Below are positions 8,614-35,102 of a DNA stretch of 64,000 nt, in pieces. The notes beneath the pieces are model-generated. The model was not told the origin of the DNA, did not search any database, and worked only from the letters and a program-made list of their open reading frames with translations. This DNA comes from Deltaproteobacteria bacterium (GTDB lineage Bacteria > Myxococcota_A > Polyangia > Polyangiales > JADJMO01). The stretch spans positions 1 to 64,000 of the forward strand of contig JALHOE010000004.1 in NCBI GenBank assembly GCA_022843175.1. The letters are read 5' to 3'. Each line of letters opens with the position of its first letter. Positions within the stretch are counted from its first letter, which is position 1. A program made the translations under genes and the position numbers.

Positions 8614-9762
8614 TTACGCGGCCCGGGGGAAGACGAGCGGTTTGACGACGTTGTCGAGCTTGCTCGACATCATGTGATAGCCCTCGGCGATCTCGTCGAG
8701 CGCCAGGCGATGGGTGACGATCGCGCTCGGTTTGAGCACGCCGTTCTTCACGTGTTGAAAGAGGCGCGGCCAGTGGCGCTTCACGCTGCACTGCGCGGTG
8801 CGAATCGTGAGCCCCTTGTTCATCGCGTCGCCGAACTTCACCGCAGAGAACAGCGGGCCGAAGCCGCCGACGACCGAGACGATGCCCGCCTTGCGCACGG
8901 AGTCGATCGCCCAGTTGAGCGCGGTCGGCGCGCCGCCCTGCAGCTTCATCTTCACCGTGGCGAGGTGCTGGAAGCCGGCGCCATCGGCCTCGGCGCCGAC
9001 GGCCTCGATGCAGACGTCCGCGCCGAGGTTGTCGGTCACGTCCTTGAAGTGCTGCACGACGTCGTTCACTTGTGTGAAGTTGAGCGTCTCGGCGTGGGCG
9101 AACGTCCTCGCCATCTGCAACCGCCAATCCAGGTGATCGACGACGATCACCCGACCGGCGCCCATCAACCACGCCGACTTCGCGGCGAAGAGACCGACGG
9201 GACCCGCGCCGAAGACGACGACGACATCGCCCTCCTTGATGTCGCCCATCTCCGCGGCCTGATAGCCGGTGGGGCACGCGTCGGTGAGGAGGACCGCGTC
9301 CTCCTCGCTCATCCATTCGGGGATGATGGCGTGGTTGACGTCGGCGAACGGCACGCGCACGAACTCCGCCTGGCCGCCGTCGTAGCCGCCCGCGGTGTGC
9401 GAGTAGCCGAACATGCCGCCGGCCGCGGTCGCGTTGGCGTTGGTGTTGTGACAGCTGCTGTACAGCTGGCGCGCGCAGAAAAAGCACGCTCCGCACGAGA
9501 TGTTGAACGGCATCATCACGCGGTCGCCGCGCCTGAGTGACTGTACGGACGAGCCGACCTCCTCGACGATGCCGGTGAACTCGTGGCCGAACGTGAACCC
9601 CACGCGCGTGTCGGGCATGAGCCCGTGGTAGAGGTGTAGATCGGAGCCGCAGATCGCCGCGCAAGTGACCCGAACGATCGCATCGTTCGGGTGCTCGATC
9701 GTCGGCATGTCCTTCTCCTCGACGCGGACCCGATACGGTCCGCGGTAAACCATTGCGCGCAT
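8614..9762 (-). CDS. Zinc-dependent alcohol/formaldehyde dehydrogenase family protein
   Basis: The protein has 382 aa and is a medium-chain zinc dehydrogenase. The catalytic-zinc region includes AAICGSDLHLYHG and GHEFTGIVEEVG. The structural-zinc cluster with four cysteines (CGACFFCARQLYSSC) is intact, and the NAD-binding loop is FGAGPVGLFAAKSAW. It resembles the glutathione-independent formaldehyde-dehydrogenase-like branch. The start is the ATG at 9762, preceded by a clear AGGAGG ribosome site; the frame is open further upstream but only through the dispersed repeat. It heads a two-gene operon with the 8008-8604 protein. Confidence 0.93.
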   Translation of the reverse strand: MRAMVYRGPYRVRVEEKDMPTIEHPNDAIVRVTCAAICGSDLHLYHGLMPDTRVGFTFGHEFTGIVEEVGSSVQSLRRGDRVMMPFNISCGACFFCARQLYSSCHNTNANATAAGGMFGYSHTAGGYDGGQAEFVRVPFADVNHAIIPEWMSEEDAVLLTDACPTGYQAAEMGDIKEGDVVVVFGAGPVGLFAAKSAWLMGAGRVIVVDHLDWRLQMARTFAHAETLNFTQVNDVVQHFKDVTDNLGADVCIEAVGAEADGAGFQHLATVKMKLQGGAPTALNWAIDSVRKAGIVSVVGGFGPLFSAVKFGDAMNKGLTIRTAQCSVKRHWPRLFQHVKNGVLKPSAIVTHRLALDEIAEGYHMMSSKLDNVVKPLVFPRAA

Positions 9763-9867
9763 GAAGCCTCCTTGAGGGATTTGTCCCCCGAGGGTGCAAC
9801 CACCGCGCCCGACCACGGCTGACGTCGGCGCTACTTCGCGCAGTCCTTCGGGATCGGGGGGTAGGAC

Positions 9868-9964
9868 GTCGAGGCGTCCGCGTGTGATTCCAGTCGGCGA
9901 GTTGACATAGGTCCCCTCCTCCGATCTACCCATCGGACGGCCGGGTTGGGCCGCGACGTCTCTG
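9868..9964 (-). repeat. Dispersed 97-bp repeat, copy A (full)
   Basis: About 97 bp is closely similar to 13026-13121 (copy B), starting GTCGAGGCGTCCGCGTG and ending CCGCGACGTCTCTG on the plus strand. It contains a small hairpin, CCGAT-CTACCC-ATCGG, at 9921-9935. It lies 106 bp upstream of the dehydrogenase start. On the other side it abuts the broken gene at 9966. The half copies at 21.65 kb and 35.0 kb share its right and left parts. Strand is given relative to the downstream gene, which is on the minus strand for every copy. Confidence 0.85.
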
Positions 9965-9965
9965 T

Positions 9966-10075
9966 GAGTACTACGACGTCGCGCAGGAGAAGGGGAAGCC
10001 GAAGAAGATCCTCACCTGCGAGGCGACGTGCAAATCGTTCTCGATTGCTCGCCGGGCTTCACCCGCTTGCGGTAG
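9966..10075 (+). pseudogene. C-terminal remnant of a secreted Cys-containing (VWA-type) protein, frameshifted
   Basis: From 9966 the plus strand reads EYYDVAQEKGKPKKILTCEA. A shift of frame is then needed to continue as DVQIVLDCSPGFTRLR, ending at a TAG at 10073-10075. The order K-I-L-T-C, then V-x-I-V-L-x-C near the C-terminus, resembles the tail of myxobacterial secreted von Willebrand-type proteins. This likeness is from memory of such tails and is not verified. The piece begins two bases after repeat copy A, so the repeat marks the break point. It lacks a start and is not expected to be functional. Confidence 0.5.
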
Positions 10076-10114
10076 ACCGCGCTGCGGATGTTCGTAGCGC
10101 AGGATTAGCGCTGG

Positions 10115-11173
10115 TCAGCGTCGGCGGCGGACGAGCGCGATGGCGAGCGCGGCGAGCGCGAACAGACCCGAACCGCCCGAGCGCCCCGGCGTGTCGCACG
10201 AGCACGCCGGCTTCGCGGCGGGAAGGTCGAACCCTCCGCCGGGCACGCGGGTGTCCGCTTCGCTCGCATCGACGAGCGGCGTCGCGTCGAGCTCCGGCTC
10301 GGTGTCGGGCTGCGCGCTGTCGGCGATCGCGACGTCATCGACCGACGTGTCCGGCGGCGCGGTGTCGGCTACCGACGTGTCGGCTGCCGACGTGTCGGGC
10401 ATCGACGTGTCGGGGATCGATGTATCGGGCATCGACGTATCGGGCATCGATGTGTCGGGCATCGACGTGTCCGGCGGCGCGGTGTCGGGCGTGCCGGTGT
10501 CGACCGGCGCGGTGTCGGCGCCCGCATCGAGCCCGCAAGACGTCTTCGACGCCGAGGAGTTTCGGGCCACGGGGGCCGACGACGCGAAGTCCGCGCTGTT
10601 GTCGTCGGTCTCGGTGCAGCCGGAGCCCTTCCGCTGCGGCGAGGTGAGGATCGTACCCGGCGGCGCCGCTCCGCTGCCCTCGAAGGCGGTCGCTGCGCCG
10701 TAGCCGACGAAGTCGACGACCCCCGAGGCGGTCGCGCATCCGACCGTGCACGTGAGCGCCGTCGACGAGCTCACCAACGCGACCTTGCCGGACAGGGCGC
10801 TGAGGTTGCTCGTCCCCGTCGCGTCCGAGGTCGGCAGGGTGAGCCCGCCGCCCGCGGTGTCGGTGTACATCTGGACCAGGAAGTACCCTCCGGCCGGGAT
10901 CGTCTTCGCGGGCAGCGCGGTGACGGTCCACGACGCTCCGGCGGCGGCGGCGTATTGGAGCGACCATCCGCTCACCGAGACCGAGGTCGTTCCGCGGTTG
11001 AAGATCTCGATGAAGTCGCTGTTGTAGATCGTCCCCGCGTTGCCGGCGCCACCGTAAACCTGGCTGATGACCAAGCCGGTCGACAACGCTTGCTCCGACG
11101 AGGCGAGCTCGGGGCCCGACGACGACGACGAGCATCCCGCGAGCAGCACCATCGACGCGAGCAGCCGGCGCAC
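10115..11173 (-). CDS. Lamin-tail-domain surface lipoprotein with D-T-S-x-P repeats and MYXO-CTERM-like tag
   Basis: From a GTG at 11173 the protein has 352 aa. Residues 1-14 form a signal peptide with lipobox (LLAGC). A lamin-tail domain follows, with the typical opening LVISQVYGGAGNAGTIYNSD and later FIEIFNRG and GWSLQY. From about residue 220 there is a low-complexity linker of DTSMP/DTAPP repeats. The C-terminus, with CSCDTPGRSGG, a hydrophobic helix and four arginines, has the layout of a MYXO-CTERM sorting tag. It is therefore a surface-exposed, possibly sorted protein; lamin-tail domains in bacteria often accompany secreted nucleases or adhesins. Confidence 0.8.
   Translation of the reverse strand: MRRLLASMVLLAGCSSSSSGPELASSEQALSTGLVISQVYGGAGNAGTIYNSDFIEIFNRGTTSVSVSGWSLQYAAAAGASWTVTALPAKTIPAGGYFLVQMYTDTAGGGLTLPTSDATGTSNLSALSGKVALVSSSTALTCTVGCATASGVVDFVGYGAATAFEGSGAAPPGTILTSPQRKGSGCTETDDNSADFASSAPVARNSSASKTSCGLDAGADTAPVDTGTPDTAPPDTSMPDTSMPDTSMPDTSIPDTSMPDTSAADTSVADTAPPDTSVDDVAIADSAQPDTEPELDATPLVDASEADTRVPGGGFDLPAAKPACSCDTPGRSGGSGLFALAALAIALVRRRR
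10340..10520 (-). repeat. 15-bp coding minisatellite (D-T-S-M-P repeats)
   Basis: Within the lamin-tail protein gene, the plus-strand unit GTGTCGGGCATCGAC repeats head-to-tail with small changes, most regularly from 10392 to about 10466, with looser copies on either side. The 15-bp period keeps the reading frame, so copy-number changes would only lengthen or shorten the surface linker. Such arrays are prone to slippage between strains. Confidence 0.85.
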
Positions 11174-11440
11174 GCTGCGAGCATACCGCGTTACGGTACG
11201 ATCGCGCTCTCGTAGGTCGCGTTGAGAGCGTGGGGTTGGAAACAAGACGACTGCGTTCGACCTGTCGGGGACGAGAACGAACGAACGATCGATCACACCG
11301 TCTGCGCCCTGGCGAAATCGGAACCGCGCGACGCCGGGGGGAAGGTTGGCGATTGGGGTGCCCAATCCGCAGTCGCACCGGGAGGTGTCGCGGAGGTTGT
11401 ACTTCGCCCCCGCGAGCGGCGCGCCGCCATGAGCCAGGCT

Positions 11441-12100
11441 CTACGGTGAAGCGACGGGCGCTCCCTCCGAGCACTCGTCTTTCACGCTCTTCTCTGCGTC
11501 GTCACGCACGAACCGCCACTCGGCGCCGAACGACGCGTCGCCCGCCTCGAAGACGATCTTGAACGGCGCGTGGGTGGGCCACTCCGCGCGCGCGATCGCT
11601 TGCGCGAGGGTGCAGGTCGGGCCGTTGCGGTAAGTGCTCGGTGGGCCCGCGATCGTCTGGGTCCAGCGCTCGCCGCCGAATGCGGTGACGCCGAAGCGAT
11701 CGCTCTTGCCATCCCTCGTCCGGCTCCACTCCGCGCTGAAGAAGCCAGTGGTCGGGATGAAACCGGGCGCGTTCATCCCGAACACCGGCGTACCGGACCA
11801 GGTCTTCCCCGAGCACGTGATCGCAAGCCGTCCCTTCGCATCCGCGCATGATGCGCGCGCCCAGACCAGCGTCACCTCGTACCCACCCGCATGCGCGAGC
11901 GCCGCGCCCTCCGCGATGAACGCCTCGAACCCCTCGACCTTCGGCGCGGCGTTCGCCGAAGCCGTCGGCGCGGCGGGATCGGAGCGGATCTCCGCGCGCG
12001 AGGGGCGACGACACGCCATCGCCGCGAGGACAATCACCGAGAAGCGCCAAAGGCTCGGCGGGGAACGCAACGACGCGAGGCTGCACCGAACCTGTGGCAC
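11441..12100 (-). CDS. Lipoprotein of unknown function
   Basis: The 219-aa protein has a long basic N-region, a hydrophobic core and the lipobox AAMAC near residue 30, which argues for lipid anchoring. After a short Ala/Ser/Pro linker there is one globular domain with two conserved-looking cysteine pairs. It contains TTGFFSAEWSRTRDGKSDRF and an aromatic-rich beta region. The start codon is GTG at 12100; shorter starts are possible because the N-region is long. No family is recognised and no operon partner is evident. Confidence 0.6.
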   Translation of the reverse strand: MPQVRCSLASLRSPPSLWRFSVIVLAAMACRRPSRAEIRSDPAAPTASANAAPKVEGFEAFIAEGAALAHAGGYEVTLVWARASCADAKGRLAITCSGKTWSGTPVFGMNAPGFIPTTGFFSAEWSRTRDGKSDRFGVTAFGGERWTQTIAGPPSTYRNGPTCTLAQAIARAEWPTHAPFKIVFEAGDASFGAEWRFVRDDAEKSVKDECSEGAPVASP

Positions 12101-12442
12101 GGTCCCAGCTTATGGCTTTCGCGACCTTGCCACTCGATCGGATCGCGTTCCGGGCCGCAGGCGTCGGGAGGGCCTCGGTGATGAGCTTCGCACGATCGAT
12201 CAGGTGCGAACGCAGATCGGATGCCTCTGAAGGCTGTCCGCACGCTCAACAGAGACGACGCCCCCTCGCCGGCCGTCCGGAGTGATGATCGTGGTCTGAG
12301 TTTTATGGCAACTCGCGCGTCGGAATCTGCGAGGGTCGCTTCCGCTTCCTAGCGCGGCATCGCGTAACCAATGTCCCCATCGAGGTACAGCCGCGCGCCG
12401 TGCTCGGTGTCCACCGTCGCGTTCGATGAGCTCTGTCGGTGA
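12101..12442. other. Intergenic region with weak coding traces
   Basis: No convincing gene is present. On the minus strand, 12349-12430 could encode a tail reading ATVDTEHGARLYLDGDIGYA before a stop; this may be a remnant of a lost gene. A plus-strand open frame of 63 codons at 12094-12285 has no features of a real protein. I see no strong hairpin. Confidence 0.3.
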
Positions 12443-12844
12443 TCAGTCGCCGCCAGCGTCTCCCCCGCAGAGACCGAGCTTCGAGTAGGGCGCGGGCGAG
12501 ACGCCGCCCGCCCAGATGTCCTTGCCGTCGCAGCCGCAGTATTGCCCCGAGATGGCGACATCCGCGCACCGCTGCCAGCGGCGACACACGCCCTTCGGCG
12601 CGTCGCACCCCGGCGCGAGATAGAGGCAGTCGTAGTTGCTGTCGCACGGCTTCGTCGGGGAGCACTCCTCGCCGTCGCCGGGACCGGAGACGGCTTTCGG
12701 CGCCGGCGAGGAGCATGGATCGACGACTGCGTCGGTCGCGGTATCGGTGCTCGCGGTATCGGTGCTCGCGGCATCGATGGGCGCGACCGGACTCTCACTC
12801 GAACAGCCCGAGATCCAGACGATCACCGCGAGGACCCGCTGCAT
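12443..12844 (-). CDS. Short cysteine-rich lipoprotein
   Basis: Starting at the ATG at 12844 gives 133 aa with signal peptide and lipobox (VIVWISGC). An Ala/Ser/Thr/Asp repeat linker (STDTASTDTATDA) follows, and then a compact domain with ten cysteines, including CDSNYDCLYLAPGC and YCGCDGKDIW. The Cys-Gly-Cys-Asp-Gly segment resembles tags seen at the end of many myxobacterial secreted domains. Longer starts at 12859 or 12895 would bury the signal. Repeat copy B lies about 180 bp upstream. It is a surface protein of unknown role. Confidence 0.65.
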   Translation of the reverse strand: MQRVLAVIVWISGCSSESPVAPIDAASTDTASTDTATDAVVDPCSSPAPKAVSGPGDGEECSPTKPCDSNYDCLYLAPGCDAPKGVCRRWQRCADVAISGQYCGCDGKDIWAGGVSPAPYSKLGLCGGDAGGD

Positions 12845-13329
12845 GTGCGCTCGTTGCATCTCCGCAGCGTGTGCAAGCCATGTGCCTCCGGGCATGAACG
12901 TGGGTCGCGCCTACTGCAGGAAGCTGTCGCGTGCATTTGTCGTCACGTTCGCACCGTTGCTCCCGGCGCAGTGTGACGCACCCGAGGCGCCGGGATCTGC
13001 CGCCGACACCGGTTTCGAGGGGGAAGTCGAAGCGTCCGCGTGGGATTCCTGTCGGCGAGTTGAAATGGAATCCCTCCTCCGATCGACACATCGGAGGCCG
13101 GGTTGGACCGCGACGTCTCTGGCACCAGGTCCTCGCGCGGTTGGCTGCGGGGACGAGCCGGCGCACGATCTGGACGGCGCTCGCAGGCGCGGCGGTGGAG
13201 CTGAGCGTCCGCTACCAGGAGAGCTCGTTCGGAGTTCACGAGCTCGACACGGTGAACGCACTGCGCCACCTCAGGGTCTCTCACCCGATGACACCGAGGC
13301 GCTCACCAATAGGCGTACGCTTGCGGTCG
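12845..13329. other. Intergenic region holding repeat copy B
   Basis: The region contains the full dispersed repeat at 13026-13121. To its right (13122-13310) a plus-strand reading gives RTIWTALAGAAVELSVRYQE with no start or stop typical of a gene, so it may be a remnant. Between 12846 and 13025 I see only the upstream region of the minus-strand lipoprotein gene. The gene at 13330 probably has its promoter at the right end. Confidence 0.4.
13026..13121 (-). repeat. Dispersed 97-bp repeat, copy B (full)
   Basis: About 96 bp aligns to copy A over its whole length with a one-base gap and roughly a dozen substitutions. Its central hairpin is longer than in copy A: CCTCCGATCGACACATCGGA (13077-13096) pairs CCTCCGAT with ATCGGAGG. 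Compensating outer pairs are lost in copy A, but the CCGAT/ATCGG core is kept in all three copies that contain it. It is placed upstream of the lipoprotein gene at 12844. Confidence 0.85.
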
Positions 13330-13842
13330 ATGCGCCCGCTCGTGCTCGTGCTCGCCCTCGCTGGCTGCGGACGCCGCACGCCGGAGACGACCATCGAGCG
13401 CCTTGTCGGCGCGCTCGCCGGTTATGACTTCGATCGTGCGCTGGCCCTCGAGGTCTCGCCCGAGATGCTCGCCGAGCACGTGCAGTGCGCGCCGGGCACC
13501 AAGAACGACTTCTTCACCGCGGCGGGCCGCCGCAAACGCCTCGACGAGATGGTGCGCCAGGCGCGCGGACCGACGGGGAAGCCGAGCTACGTCATCGCCC
13601 TCAAGCCGGAGTCGCCCATCGAGCCGTACTATCCCGAGCAATGGAAGGCGCACCGCGCCGGCGACACCATCTACGACGACTGTCGCGCGGTGAAGCCGTT
13701 CGAGGTTCGAGAGTACCGCATCGTGCTCATCAAGCCGGCGCGGTTCGGCGGCCCGACGACGACCTCGACCAAGCCGATCAAGCTGTGGAAGCTCCATGGC
13801 AACTGGTACGCGTGGGATGATCCCCTCGACACCGAGATCTGA
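13330..13842 (+). CDS. Lipoprotein of unknown function
   Basis: The ATG at 13330 gives 170 aa with a short signal peptide and lipobox (MRPLVLVLALAGC). The open frame continues far upstream but without signal-like sequence. The mature part is one alpha/beta domain with the opening TPETTIERLVGALAGYDFDR, typical of small NTF2-like or DUF-type lipoproteins that begin with a helix and a conserved aromatic. It ends with KLWKLHGNWYAWDDP, a strand motif also common in NTF2-like folds. The fold assignment is tentative. The gene stands alone. Confidence 0.7.
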   Translation: MRPLVLVLALAGCGRRTPETTIERLVGALAGYDFDRALALEVSPEMLAEHVQCAPGTKNDFFTAAGRRKRLDEMVRQARGPTGKPSYVIALKPESPIEPYYPEQWKAHRAGDTIYDDCRAVKPFEVREYRIVLIKPARFGGPTTTSTKPIKLWKLHGNWYAWDDPLDTEI

Positions 13843-14188: not shown

Positions 14189-15085
14189 TCAGGCCGTCTT
14201 CGCACCGTCGAGCGGGAGGATCTCGTGAAAACGCGTGTAGTCCAGGACGCGCGTGCCGTCGTCGAGCACGGTCAGGATGTCGGCGAAACGAGCGTTGGGG
14301 ACGATGTCATCGAGCGCGTAGGCGTAGCGCGCATGGATCGACTGCATGATGGTCTCGTCGTAGCCGCTGACACTGAGAAACAGCTCGCCATTCTTCGCTC
14401 TCAGCCTCTCTATCGCGCCCTCGCCATAGAATGGACTCGACTCATCGATGCGATGCATCGCCAACCATGTCAGCCCGAACATGGCATTGCGGTCGCGCAC
14501 GAGCTTGATCTCCGTTGGATTGCGCAGCGTGTCGCCCTCCTTGGTGGTGTGCGACAGGAGCAGGATGACTCGCACCTGCGCCTCGACGACCTGGTTGTGG
14601 CGCCAGTTGGCCATGCGAAACACCAAGTGCGGCACGCCGTCGCGCGGCTGGATCACGAGCTTCTCGGTGAAGAGGATCTTCGCGGTTGGTCGCGCGAATT
14701 TCGCGAAGGTCACGCCGGTCATCAACGCCACCGAAACCATGCCGACCAGCGCTTCGATCGCGACGATGACGTTCCCGTAACGCCCCTGCGGCGCCATGCT
14801 GCCGTAGCCGATGGTGCCGAGCGTGTGCACGCTGAAGAAGAACGCGTCCTCGAACGAACCCTCACGCGCGTTGGCGATCGATCCCGGCACCGCCAGGTAA
14901 AGAGCGGCAAACACGGCGTTGATGACCACGAAGGCGACGACCACCAGCGAGAAGAACTGCGACCACGAGCGCGTGAGCACGAAGTGATAGAAGTCCTCGA
15001 GCGGGTGGCGCTGGCGCCCCTTGGTCGCGAGGGTGGGGAGTCGGCCGCGATGCTCACGGAACCGGATCGGCAGCCTGTCGGCCAT
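14189..15085 (-). CDS. KirBac-type inward-rectifier potassium channel
   Basis: The 298-aa protein has two membrane helices around a pore loop whose selectivity filter TIGYG is at about residues 91-95. A large C-terminal cytoplasmic beta-sandwich follows (VIQPRDGVPHLVFRMANWRH; ILLLSHTTKEGDTLRNPTEI). This is the layout of bacterial inward-rectifier homologues. The amphipathic slide helix precedes the first membrane segment (LEDFYHFVLTRSWSQFF). The ATG at 15085 gives the usual N-terminus; an ATG at 15100 adds five residues. It should conduct K+ across the inner membrane, gated by lipids or ligands in characterised relatives. Confidence 0.95.
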   Translation of the reverse strand: MADRLPIRFREHRGRLPTLATKGRQRHPLEDFYHFVLTRSWSQFFSLVVVAFVVINAVFAALYLAVPGSIANAREGSFEDAFFFSVHTLGTIGYGSMAPQGRYGNVIVAIEALVGMVSVALMTGVTFAKFARPTAKILFTEKLVIQPRDGVPHLVFRMANWRHNQVVEAQVRVILLLSHTTKEGDTLRNPTEIKLVRDRNAMFGLTWLAMHRIDESSPFYGEGAIERLRAKNGELFLSVSGYDETIMQSIHARYAYALDDIVPNARFADILTVLDDGTRVLDYTRFHEILPLDGAKTA

Positions 15086-15124
15086 CCCCGGGGAATACAC
15101 TCCGCGGCGATGCGGAGGAAGTTC

Positions 15125-20953: not shown

Positions 20954-21646
20954 CTACTTCGCATTCGCGGATGGTGCGCTTGCGGCGCCGCCAGCGTCTG
21001 CGCGGAGTGGAGAGAACGCCGCCTTCGCATCGGCGCGAAACGCAACCGGGCCGTGGGAGCTCATGATCACCACGATCGCGCCGTCCGCGGTCGACGTCGT
21101 GGCGATGGTCTGCGCGAGGAGGTCGCCCGCCGGATCGAGCACGACGGACCACTGCGCCCCTTGCCGATCGAACCTCGCGAGGCGCGCTGCCGTCGCCCGG
21201 CCGGAGGGGCCGAGAAAGCTCCCCTTCACGTCGACATGACGAATGAGGAGCACCGCGTCGCTCAATGGAACGGCCACATCCCCTGGGAGCGTAGGCGGCG
21301 ACGGCTTCGTCACGCAGCCGGCGGCGTTGCATCGGACCACCTGGAGCGATTCCTTCAGCGCTGTCATGGTGAGGCCGCTCGCATCACATCCGAGTCGCAC
21401 TTGCTGCGCGAAGTCCCCTGCAAAGAGCGGCGCGAGTGCGTCGGCGGCGACCACGTTCCAAGCACCGCCGATGTCGAGCGCGAGATCGACGGTGTCTTTG
21501 CCGCCGTGGCGGAGCAGAAGAAAGTGTGTCGAGCCCACGCCGCACGACAGGACTTTGGCGGGAAGGTCGCGCAACTTTCCGAGCGTCGCCGTTGTTCCCG
21601 CGGTGCCGTCCGCGGCTAGATCGGCCGCGACCAGGGTGGTGTTGCG
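20954..21646 (-). pseudogene. N-terminally truncated paralogue of the propeller protein at 52147-53514
   Basis: The frame is open from 21700 to 20954, but its first 15-20 codons are the dispersed repeat (copy C), not protein. The real sequence (from TTLVAADLAADG) follows the C-terminal half of the 52147-53514 product. A shared pattern of R-x-G-C with a following strand, x-C-x-A-x-x-C, and a final G-P-V-A/Y-G-A-R-type strand can be aligned throughout. The signal peptide and first blades are missing. The truncation point coincides with the repeat, which suggests deletion or insertion there. Confidence 0.6.
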
Positions 21647-21675
21647 AGATCCCTCCTCCGATTGACACATCGGAC
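21647..21675 (-). repeat. Dispersed repeat, copy C (right half only)
   Basis: The segment ATCCCTCCTCCGATTGACAC followed by ATCGGA matches the central hairpin part of copies A and B, with the CCGAT/ATCGG stem intact. The left part (GTCGAAGCGTCCGCG) is absent. It forms the boundary of the truncated gene to its left. Confidence 0.7.
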
Positions 21676-21833
21676 GTGGAGCCAGCAACGGATCCTGCAA
21701 TCTTCACTCCGGACCGTCGCTCCGGAGACGCGGGCCTCTTTTGAGCGATCACGCAGGGCAGCAGTTGAACCGAGTCGAAAGAGAACTCGTCGCTCACGGC
21801 TCCCCGAGGACGCATGCTAGTTTGCGGGGACGC

Positions 21834-34952: not shown

Positions 34953-34994
34953 CGTTCCTCCGCGCAGGAGCGTAAGCGAACGAGGAAATTGGGA

Positions 34995-35025
34995 GTAGGA
35001 GGTCGAAGCGACCGCGTGGGATTCC
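34995..35025 (-). repeat. Dispersed repeat, copy D (left half only)
   Basis: GTAGGAGGTCGAAGCGACCG followed by CGTGGGATTCCA matches the left part of copies A and B; the hairpin half is missing. It lies 43 bp upstream of the lipoprotein gene at 34952. The same strand relation to the gene is kept as in the other copies. Confidence 0.65.
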
Positions 35026-35102
35026 AATGGTGCTGACGGCGACGCCGATCAGACCGCTCGTCGGGGCGCTCCACGCGATCGACCGCGCACCGCGGGCCTC
35101 GG

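Follow-up and report, generated by a model that had tools for sequence, protein, structure and literature searches.

In IS91 and IS801, transposition begins at the right end (ori), terminates at ter or a sequence resembling it, and is carried out by an enzyme working in trans (PMC3189936, PMC6354349, PMC5714925). One-ended right-end fragments of IS801 with lengths of 229, 360, and 679 nt, each ending at a tetranucleotide, have been caught experimentally, and the tetramers at which the fragments start include GAAC, GGAC, CAAG, CGAC, and GCAC (PMC3189936). The copying of a short tail in this one-ended manner is a known behaviour that has seldom been documented.

A dispersed repeat was analysed in a stretch of 64,000 nucleotides (hereafter the window) and in the 9.75-Mb genome to which it belongs (G000; 470 contigs, designated by C and a number), together with a sister species (G001) and a relative (G002). 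The earlier note on this DNA had aligned two copies, A and B, over their whole length, and pairwise alignment bears this out with 87% identity across 101 bp. The unit of about 97 bp given there was too short, however, because comparison of the 1-kb flanks of all copies limited the similarity to about 111 bp, ending abruptly on either side, and the true repeat unit is 111 bp. Since no similarity between A and B extends beyond these 111 bp into the flanks, a duplicated gene fragment was ruled out, and the same sharp ends beside unrelated flanks leave a recombination scar, one of the origins considered in that note, unsupported. A DNA search with copy A gave 17 matches at E<=0.001 in G000 and none at this threshold in 37 relatives, and a search of G000 with R1, a sequence-only profile built from 13 copies, gave 29 matches at E<0.01. 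Matches at E<1e-10 or close numbered 16 in this genome and were spread over several contigs. The genome holds many further copies, and the copy number is far above chance expectation. Copies A and B are included among the matches without the upstream sequence of longer copies, referred to as solo copies.

Copy A is a complete solo mini-element of 111 bp on the minus strand (9857-9967; R1 model 1-111, 105 bits, E 1.2e-29 genome-wide), with the right end CCTACCCCC at 9857 and the left end TCACAGAGAC at 9967, and is 86-88% identical to a transposase-linked copy on contig C69. Its conserved right terminus, GCCTCGACGTCCTACCCCC (9857-9875, minus strand), matches the right ends of related elements and is the putative origin end; the TCCGAT...ATCGGA palindrome, the hairpin of the earlier note, is read at 9920-9937 on the same strand. 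Copy B, also a solo mini-element on the minus strand, occupies about 13014-13122 (R1 match 13017-13122, 93 bits, E 6.8e-26), and in the alignment its left tetramer is altered (TGCC) and its right terminus decayed. Two partial copies had been proposed in addition, both on the minus strand. Copy D is genuine and consists solely of 40 bp from the right (origin-side) end (34991-35030; R1 model 72-111, 22.5 bits, E 8.8e-4 genome-wide), whereas copy C, a possible internal fragment with the hairpin part, is borderline (21640-21676; R1 model 29-66, 17.7 bits, E 0.027 genome-wide). Copies A to D do share one orientation, but a fifth, diverged copy on the plus strand, with a left end reading GCTCAAC directly followed by AGAGAC, had been overlooked (12249-12351; R1 model 3-106, 40 bits, E 2.9e-9). 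The longest-ORF starts of two minus-strand ORFs (8614-9933 and 20954-21700) extend into copies A and C, so that automatic annotation may add false N-terminal extensions to the dehydrogenase and the neighbouring protein. Elsewhere in the window, the minus-strand gene at 14189-15100 encodes a potassium channel of the bacterial inward-rectifier type, with matches to IRK_C, IRK, and Ion_trans_2.

An intact gene for a 610-aa HUH transposase was identified at C69:22193-24022, the only intact one in G000, in which the remaining transposase matches are truncated; the transposase search of this genome gave no match on the window's own contig. The C69 protein matches Y2_Tnp (2e-25) and Zn_Tnp_IS91 (5.2e-21), both past the Pfam cut-offs, carries an HVHFH motif (residue 201) together with C..C pairs (81 and 100), and combines the HUH rolling-circle transposase with the N-terminal zinc-binding domain expected of an IS91/ISCR-family parent. 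The catalytic tyrosines of IS91 are two, Y249 and Y253 (PMC5714925), and this pair, characteristic of the IS91 family sensu stricto, is lacking in the transposases of both species (G000 and G001), where one tyrosine only (Y348, RYCARPP) was found in that region. The score of the C69 transposase was below the cut-off for the IS91 equivalog NF033538 (96.9 bits against 125) and also for ISCR clade Ia NF052416 (309 bits against 925), which is yet its best NCBIfam match. As judged from its sequence, this transposase is a relative of ISCR clade Ia and not a member, and the parent element is a divergent IS91/ISCR relative under the curated cut-offs. No relative of the transposase was found among solved structures.

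The C69 copy of the repeat begins 80 bp past the transposase stop codon. Four longer copies besides C69 were found (C36, C5, C18_49, and C34), three of them with a truncated transposase, and the upstream similarity among C69, C36, C5, and C18_49 extends 397 to 1387 bp, halting at the common right end. GC-rich hexanucleotide microsatellites (GGAAGC-type) adjoin both transposase copies (L009:1640-1800 on C69, L010:5330-5430 on C36), and the truncated transposase of C36 is joined directly to such a tract. In L009 and L138, a GCCGGCGGCCGCCGGC-type palindrome lies 5' of both transposase genes (L009:1967-2035, L138:2373-2410) and is a candidate true left (ter) end of the transposon.

The right end, …TTCCTACCCCC, is common to the solo copies. 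It reads CTCGACGTCCTACCCCC in copy A, with CCTACCCC as the right-end border, GCTTCGAGTTCCTAGCCCCC / TTCGAGTTCCTAGCCCCC in G001, and GCTTCGACTTCCTATCCCCC / TTCGACTTCCTATCCCCC in G002, in which an R1 match lies directly behind the transposase (C554). Related elements in betaproteobacteria, with about 33% protein identity, have the right end GTTGGATTTCCTATCCCC; homology between their copies halts at TTGGATTTCCTATCC(CC), and their terminal motif, TTCCTATCC(CC), is the same motif as the right end in this genome. The transposase linkage in G000, G001, and G002 and the betaproteobacterial right ends together indicate that the repeat is the right terminus, the last 111 bp or so, of an IS91/ISCR-like rolling-circle transposon. 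The GAAC/CAAG tetramer of the IS91/IS801 type is absent from the right flanks of aligned copies. An integron attC site, considered from RYYYAAC-like runs, was set aside when the repeat was identified as a transposon end.

Nearly all solo copies start abruptly inside the element at one position, where N(C/A)A(C/G) precedes AGAGAC. The four bases 5' of (A)GAGAC are mostly TCAC, in other cases CCAC, GCAC, CAAC, GAAC, or CAAG; the T of TCAC is absent in some copies, and copies B and C17 are without a fitting left tetramer. Compared with the transposase-linked copy over the 60 nt before this border, solo copies are at background level, with 17-35% identity against a background mean of 29%, and longer copies reach 60-83%, with 90-100% in the nearest 20 nt. 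GC precedes about 15 of 26 solo copies (binomial ~1e-7 at the window GC-dinucleotide frequency of 0.13, as counted by eye and post hoc). The aligned copies have no common inverted ends, and no flanking duplication was seen with one partial empty site examined, in which the copy at C18:35837-35941 borders on a segment with a 98%-identical paralogue that continues without the element. The nearest G001 dehydrogenase, taken as the empty-site candidate for copy A, is only 42% identical and is therefore not a safe orthologue for this comparison. The mobile miniature element of the earlier note is accordingly not a classical MITE with inverted repeats, the left and right ends being unrelated and no duplications being seen among the aligned copies; the solo copies have instead the constant right (origin) end, the internal tetramer-like left border, and the new flanks of a one-ended product.

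The transposase of G001 is 64% identical to that of C69, and an R1 match lies just 3' of its gene (C79:33028-33127), with 17 further R1 matches, mostly solo copies, in this genome. The G001 solo copy at C66:32229-32352 is identical to the transposase-linked C79 end at 124/124 positions despite unrelated flanks, indicating recent transposition. In a search with the G001 end, most left-intact copies begin within 2 nt of one internal point (query 138-140), and the copies terminate at query 260-264. Tandem right-end partials consisting of the last 27, 33, and about 66 bp were found in G001 at C66:32.2-33.3 kb (L100) and C29:146.9 kb (L097), and are compatible with a fixed right end and a variable left end.

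What is directly seen is that the 111-bp block closes transposase-bearing copies in G000 and two relatives, and that copies have a common right end, a fixed internal left border, new flanks, and, in G001, signs of recent copying. The repeat is very probably a non-autonomous mini-derivative of the right (transposase-3', origin) end, left by one-ended transposition. The HUH transposase acting in trans would nick at the right end, and rolling-circle displacement would head toward the transposase gene but stop 111-124 nt from the origin at the tetramer-like N(C/A)A(C/G) before AGAGAC and not reach the true left end, after which the short strand would be inserted elsewhere, often directly after 5'-GC. 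The presence of about two dozen scattered stubs in G000 and a separate set in the sister species suggests that copying and insertion can involve the tail by itself. Solo copies, with the origin and a left end resembling a terminator still in place, could be mobilised again once formed.

A less probable though possible alternative regards the 111-124-bp unit as a two-ended mini-transposon (RC-MITE) that has evolved a true left end recognised by the transposase, in which case solo copies would give rise to further solo copies and one-ended failure of a longer element would be of little importance. The single left border in nearly all solo copies of two species, the number of solo copies far above that of intact transposases (one in G000), and near-identical solo pairs (98% between the C29 copies, 96% between C5_95 and C218) agree with such an element. 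On the other hand, the solo copy C18_44 is closest to the longer copy C18_49 on its own contig, the G001 copy on C66 is identical to the transposase-linked end on C79, and shorter right-end-only fragments have other left borders (D, C215:9993-10094, and the tandem 27-66-bp partials). Extending this idea, one might tentatively propose that the 111-124-nt units make up a class of their own, minimal rolling-circle mini-transposons in which the origin is packed together with a dedicated second end. Such elements would be conserved as a unit throughout a myxobacterial family and moved in trans, and their local clustering and strand bias would reflect insertion at replication forks, where the DNA is single-stranded. 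It is unlikely that the copies are remnants of full-length insertions with deleted 5' parts and not short transposition products: transposase genes are variously truncated or missing in the longer copies C36, C5, C18_49, and C34, and many copies are diverged or partial, but random deletion would not give most solo copies one left border in two species, and would leave the 124/124-identical solo copy in new flanks unexplained.

Conserved cis-regulatory DNA or structured RNA in gene leaders, akin to the shared regulatory sequence also suggested in the earlier note, is highly improbable, even though most copies overlap no predicted gene and a zinc-type alcohol dehydrogenase gene follows copy A at a distance of about 90 bp. 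The TCCGA/TCGGA stem (5 bp) is, as had been claimed, mostly invariant in G000, but in the alignment it is not retained in G001 copies, and compensatory changes were none (covariation term +0.39). A mostly invariant stem without covariation, not retained in the sister species, is not evidence of selected structure; the folding z-scores of the repeat were near 0 against shuffles, and with no covariation and no Rfam match to the repeat, a structured RNA or riboswitch was rejected. The claim that copies always lie upstream of minus-strand genes did not hold. Of 39 copies placed in two genomes, about two-thirds had the predicted gene on their 3' side in the same orientation and about one-third in the opposite orientation. 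Many placed copies lie between opposed genes, several overlap ORFs, and the downstream genes have no common class. With this mixed orientation and no promoter-like site found within 9600-13400 of the window, a regulatory leader was rejected, and the direct linkage to a transposase gene in three genomes also stands against it. Because ISCR1 origins have outward promoters (PMC6218425), copy A could still affect the neighbouring dehydrogenase gene. The A and C69 copies are readable as MxRSExxxxVNSPTGIxRGR..., but a short encoded peptide was rejected as chance, since the matching stretch in G001 copies contains stop codons.

Copies are clustered, with five on C18 against 0.21 expected and four on C4 against 0.34 expected, and 36 of 40 follow the majority orientation within their contig (28.8 expected, p about 0.0007). 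The shared orientation of A to D is therefore attributable to a local orientation bias of insertions and not to gene regulation. GC skew, used as a proxy for replication direction, was weak and inconsistent, so that copy orientation is not linkable to replication. The higher identity among same-contig copies (permutation 386/2000 and 127/2000) is no more than suggestive of kinship between neighbouring copies. A segment of 590-730 bp occurs three times on C18 (30670-31400, 35942-36672, and 48604-49193; 96-98% identical; L011, L012) among the five repeat copies, and one segment copy terminates exactly at a repeat. At C5:100133-100243 and 100419-100528 (L013), two copies of the repeat stand tail to tail with about 175 bp between them.

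In the literature, as far as covered, no report of such right-end mini-elements in myxobacteria was found. These observations altogether suggest that one-ended IS91-type transposition, seen in the laboratory for IS801, has left a lasting and uniform family of mini-elements in nature. The family provides a natural set of junctions for mapping where poorly understood transposases start, stop, and insert, and accounts for a repeat that could otherwise be mistaken for a regulatory motif.

The repeat is similar to IS801 of Pseudomonas syringae (IS91 family; PMC3189936, PMC6354349) in the short right-end fragments, the constant origin end, the tetranucleotide left border, the transposase acting in trans, and the absence of inverted repeats. 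It is different in that IS801 fragments are of several lengths and mostly from an assay, whereas one preferred length of 111-124 nt dominates here among naturally occurring copies of two species, whose left border is conserved and whose right flank is without the GAAC/CAAG tetramer. Uniform, conserved right-end mini-elements in natural genomes exceed the IS801 precedent in this respect. With ISCR elements (IS91-related, oriIS 3' of rcr; PMC6218425, PMC13393415), the parent shares the HUH transposase, one visible catalytic-type tyrosine, and, on the 3' side of the gene, an end that resembles an origin. It differs from ISCR clade Ia in its score far below the cut-off and its myxobacterial-type host, and here solo origin ends proliferate, while resistance-gene capture is the trait of ISCR. 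REPs rely on a hairpin that is conserved and on an IS200/IS605-like enzyme that has been domesticated. The REP/BIME sequences with Y1 transposases (TnpA-REP; PMC8266576) resemble the repeat as short, non-autonomous, palindrome-bearing sequences plausibly moved in trans by an HUH enzyme, but the hairpin of the repeat is not conserved between species and its partner enzyme is IS91-like.
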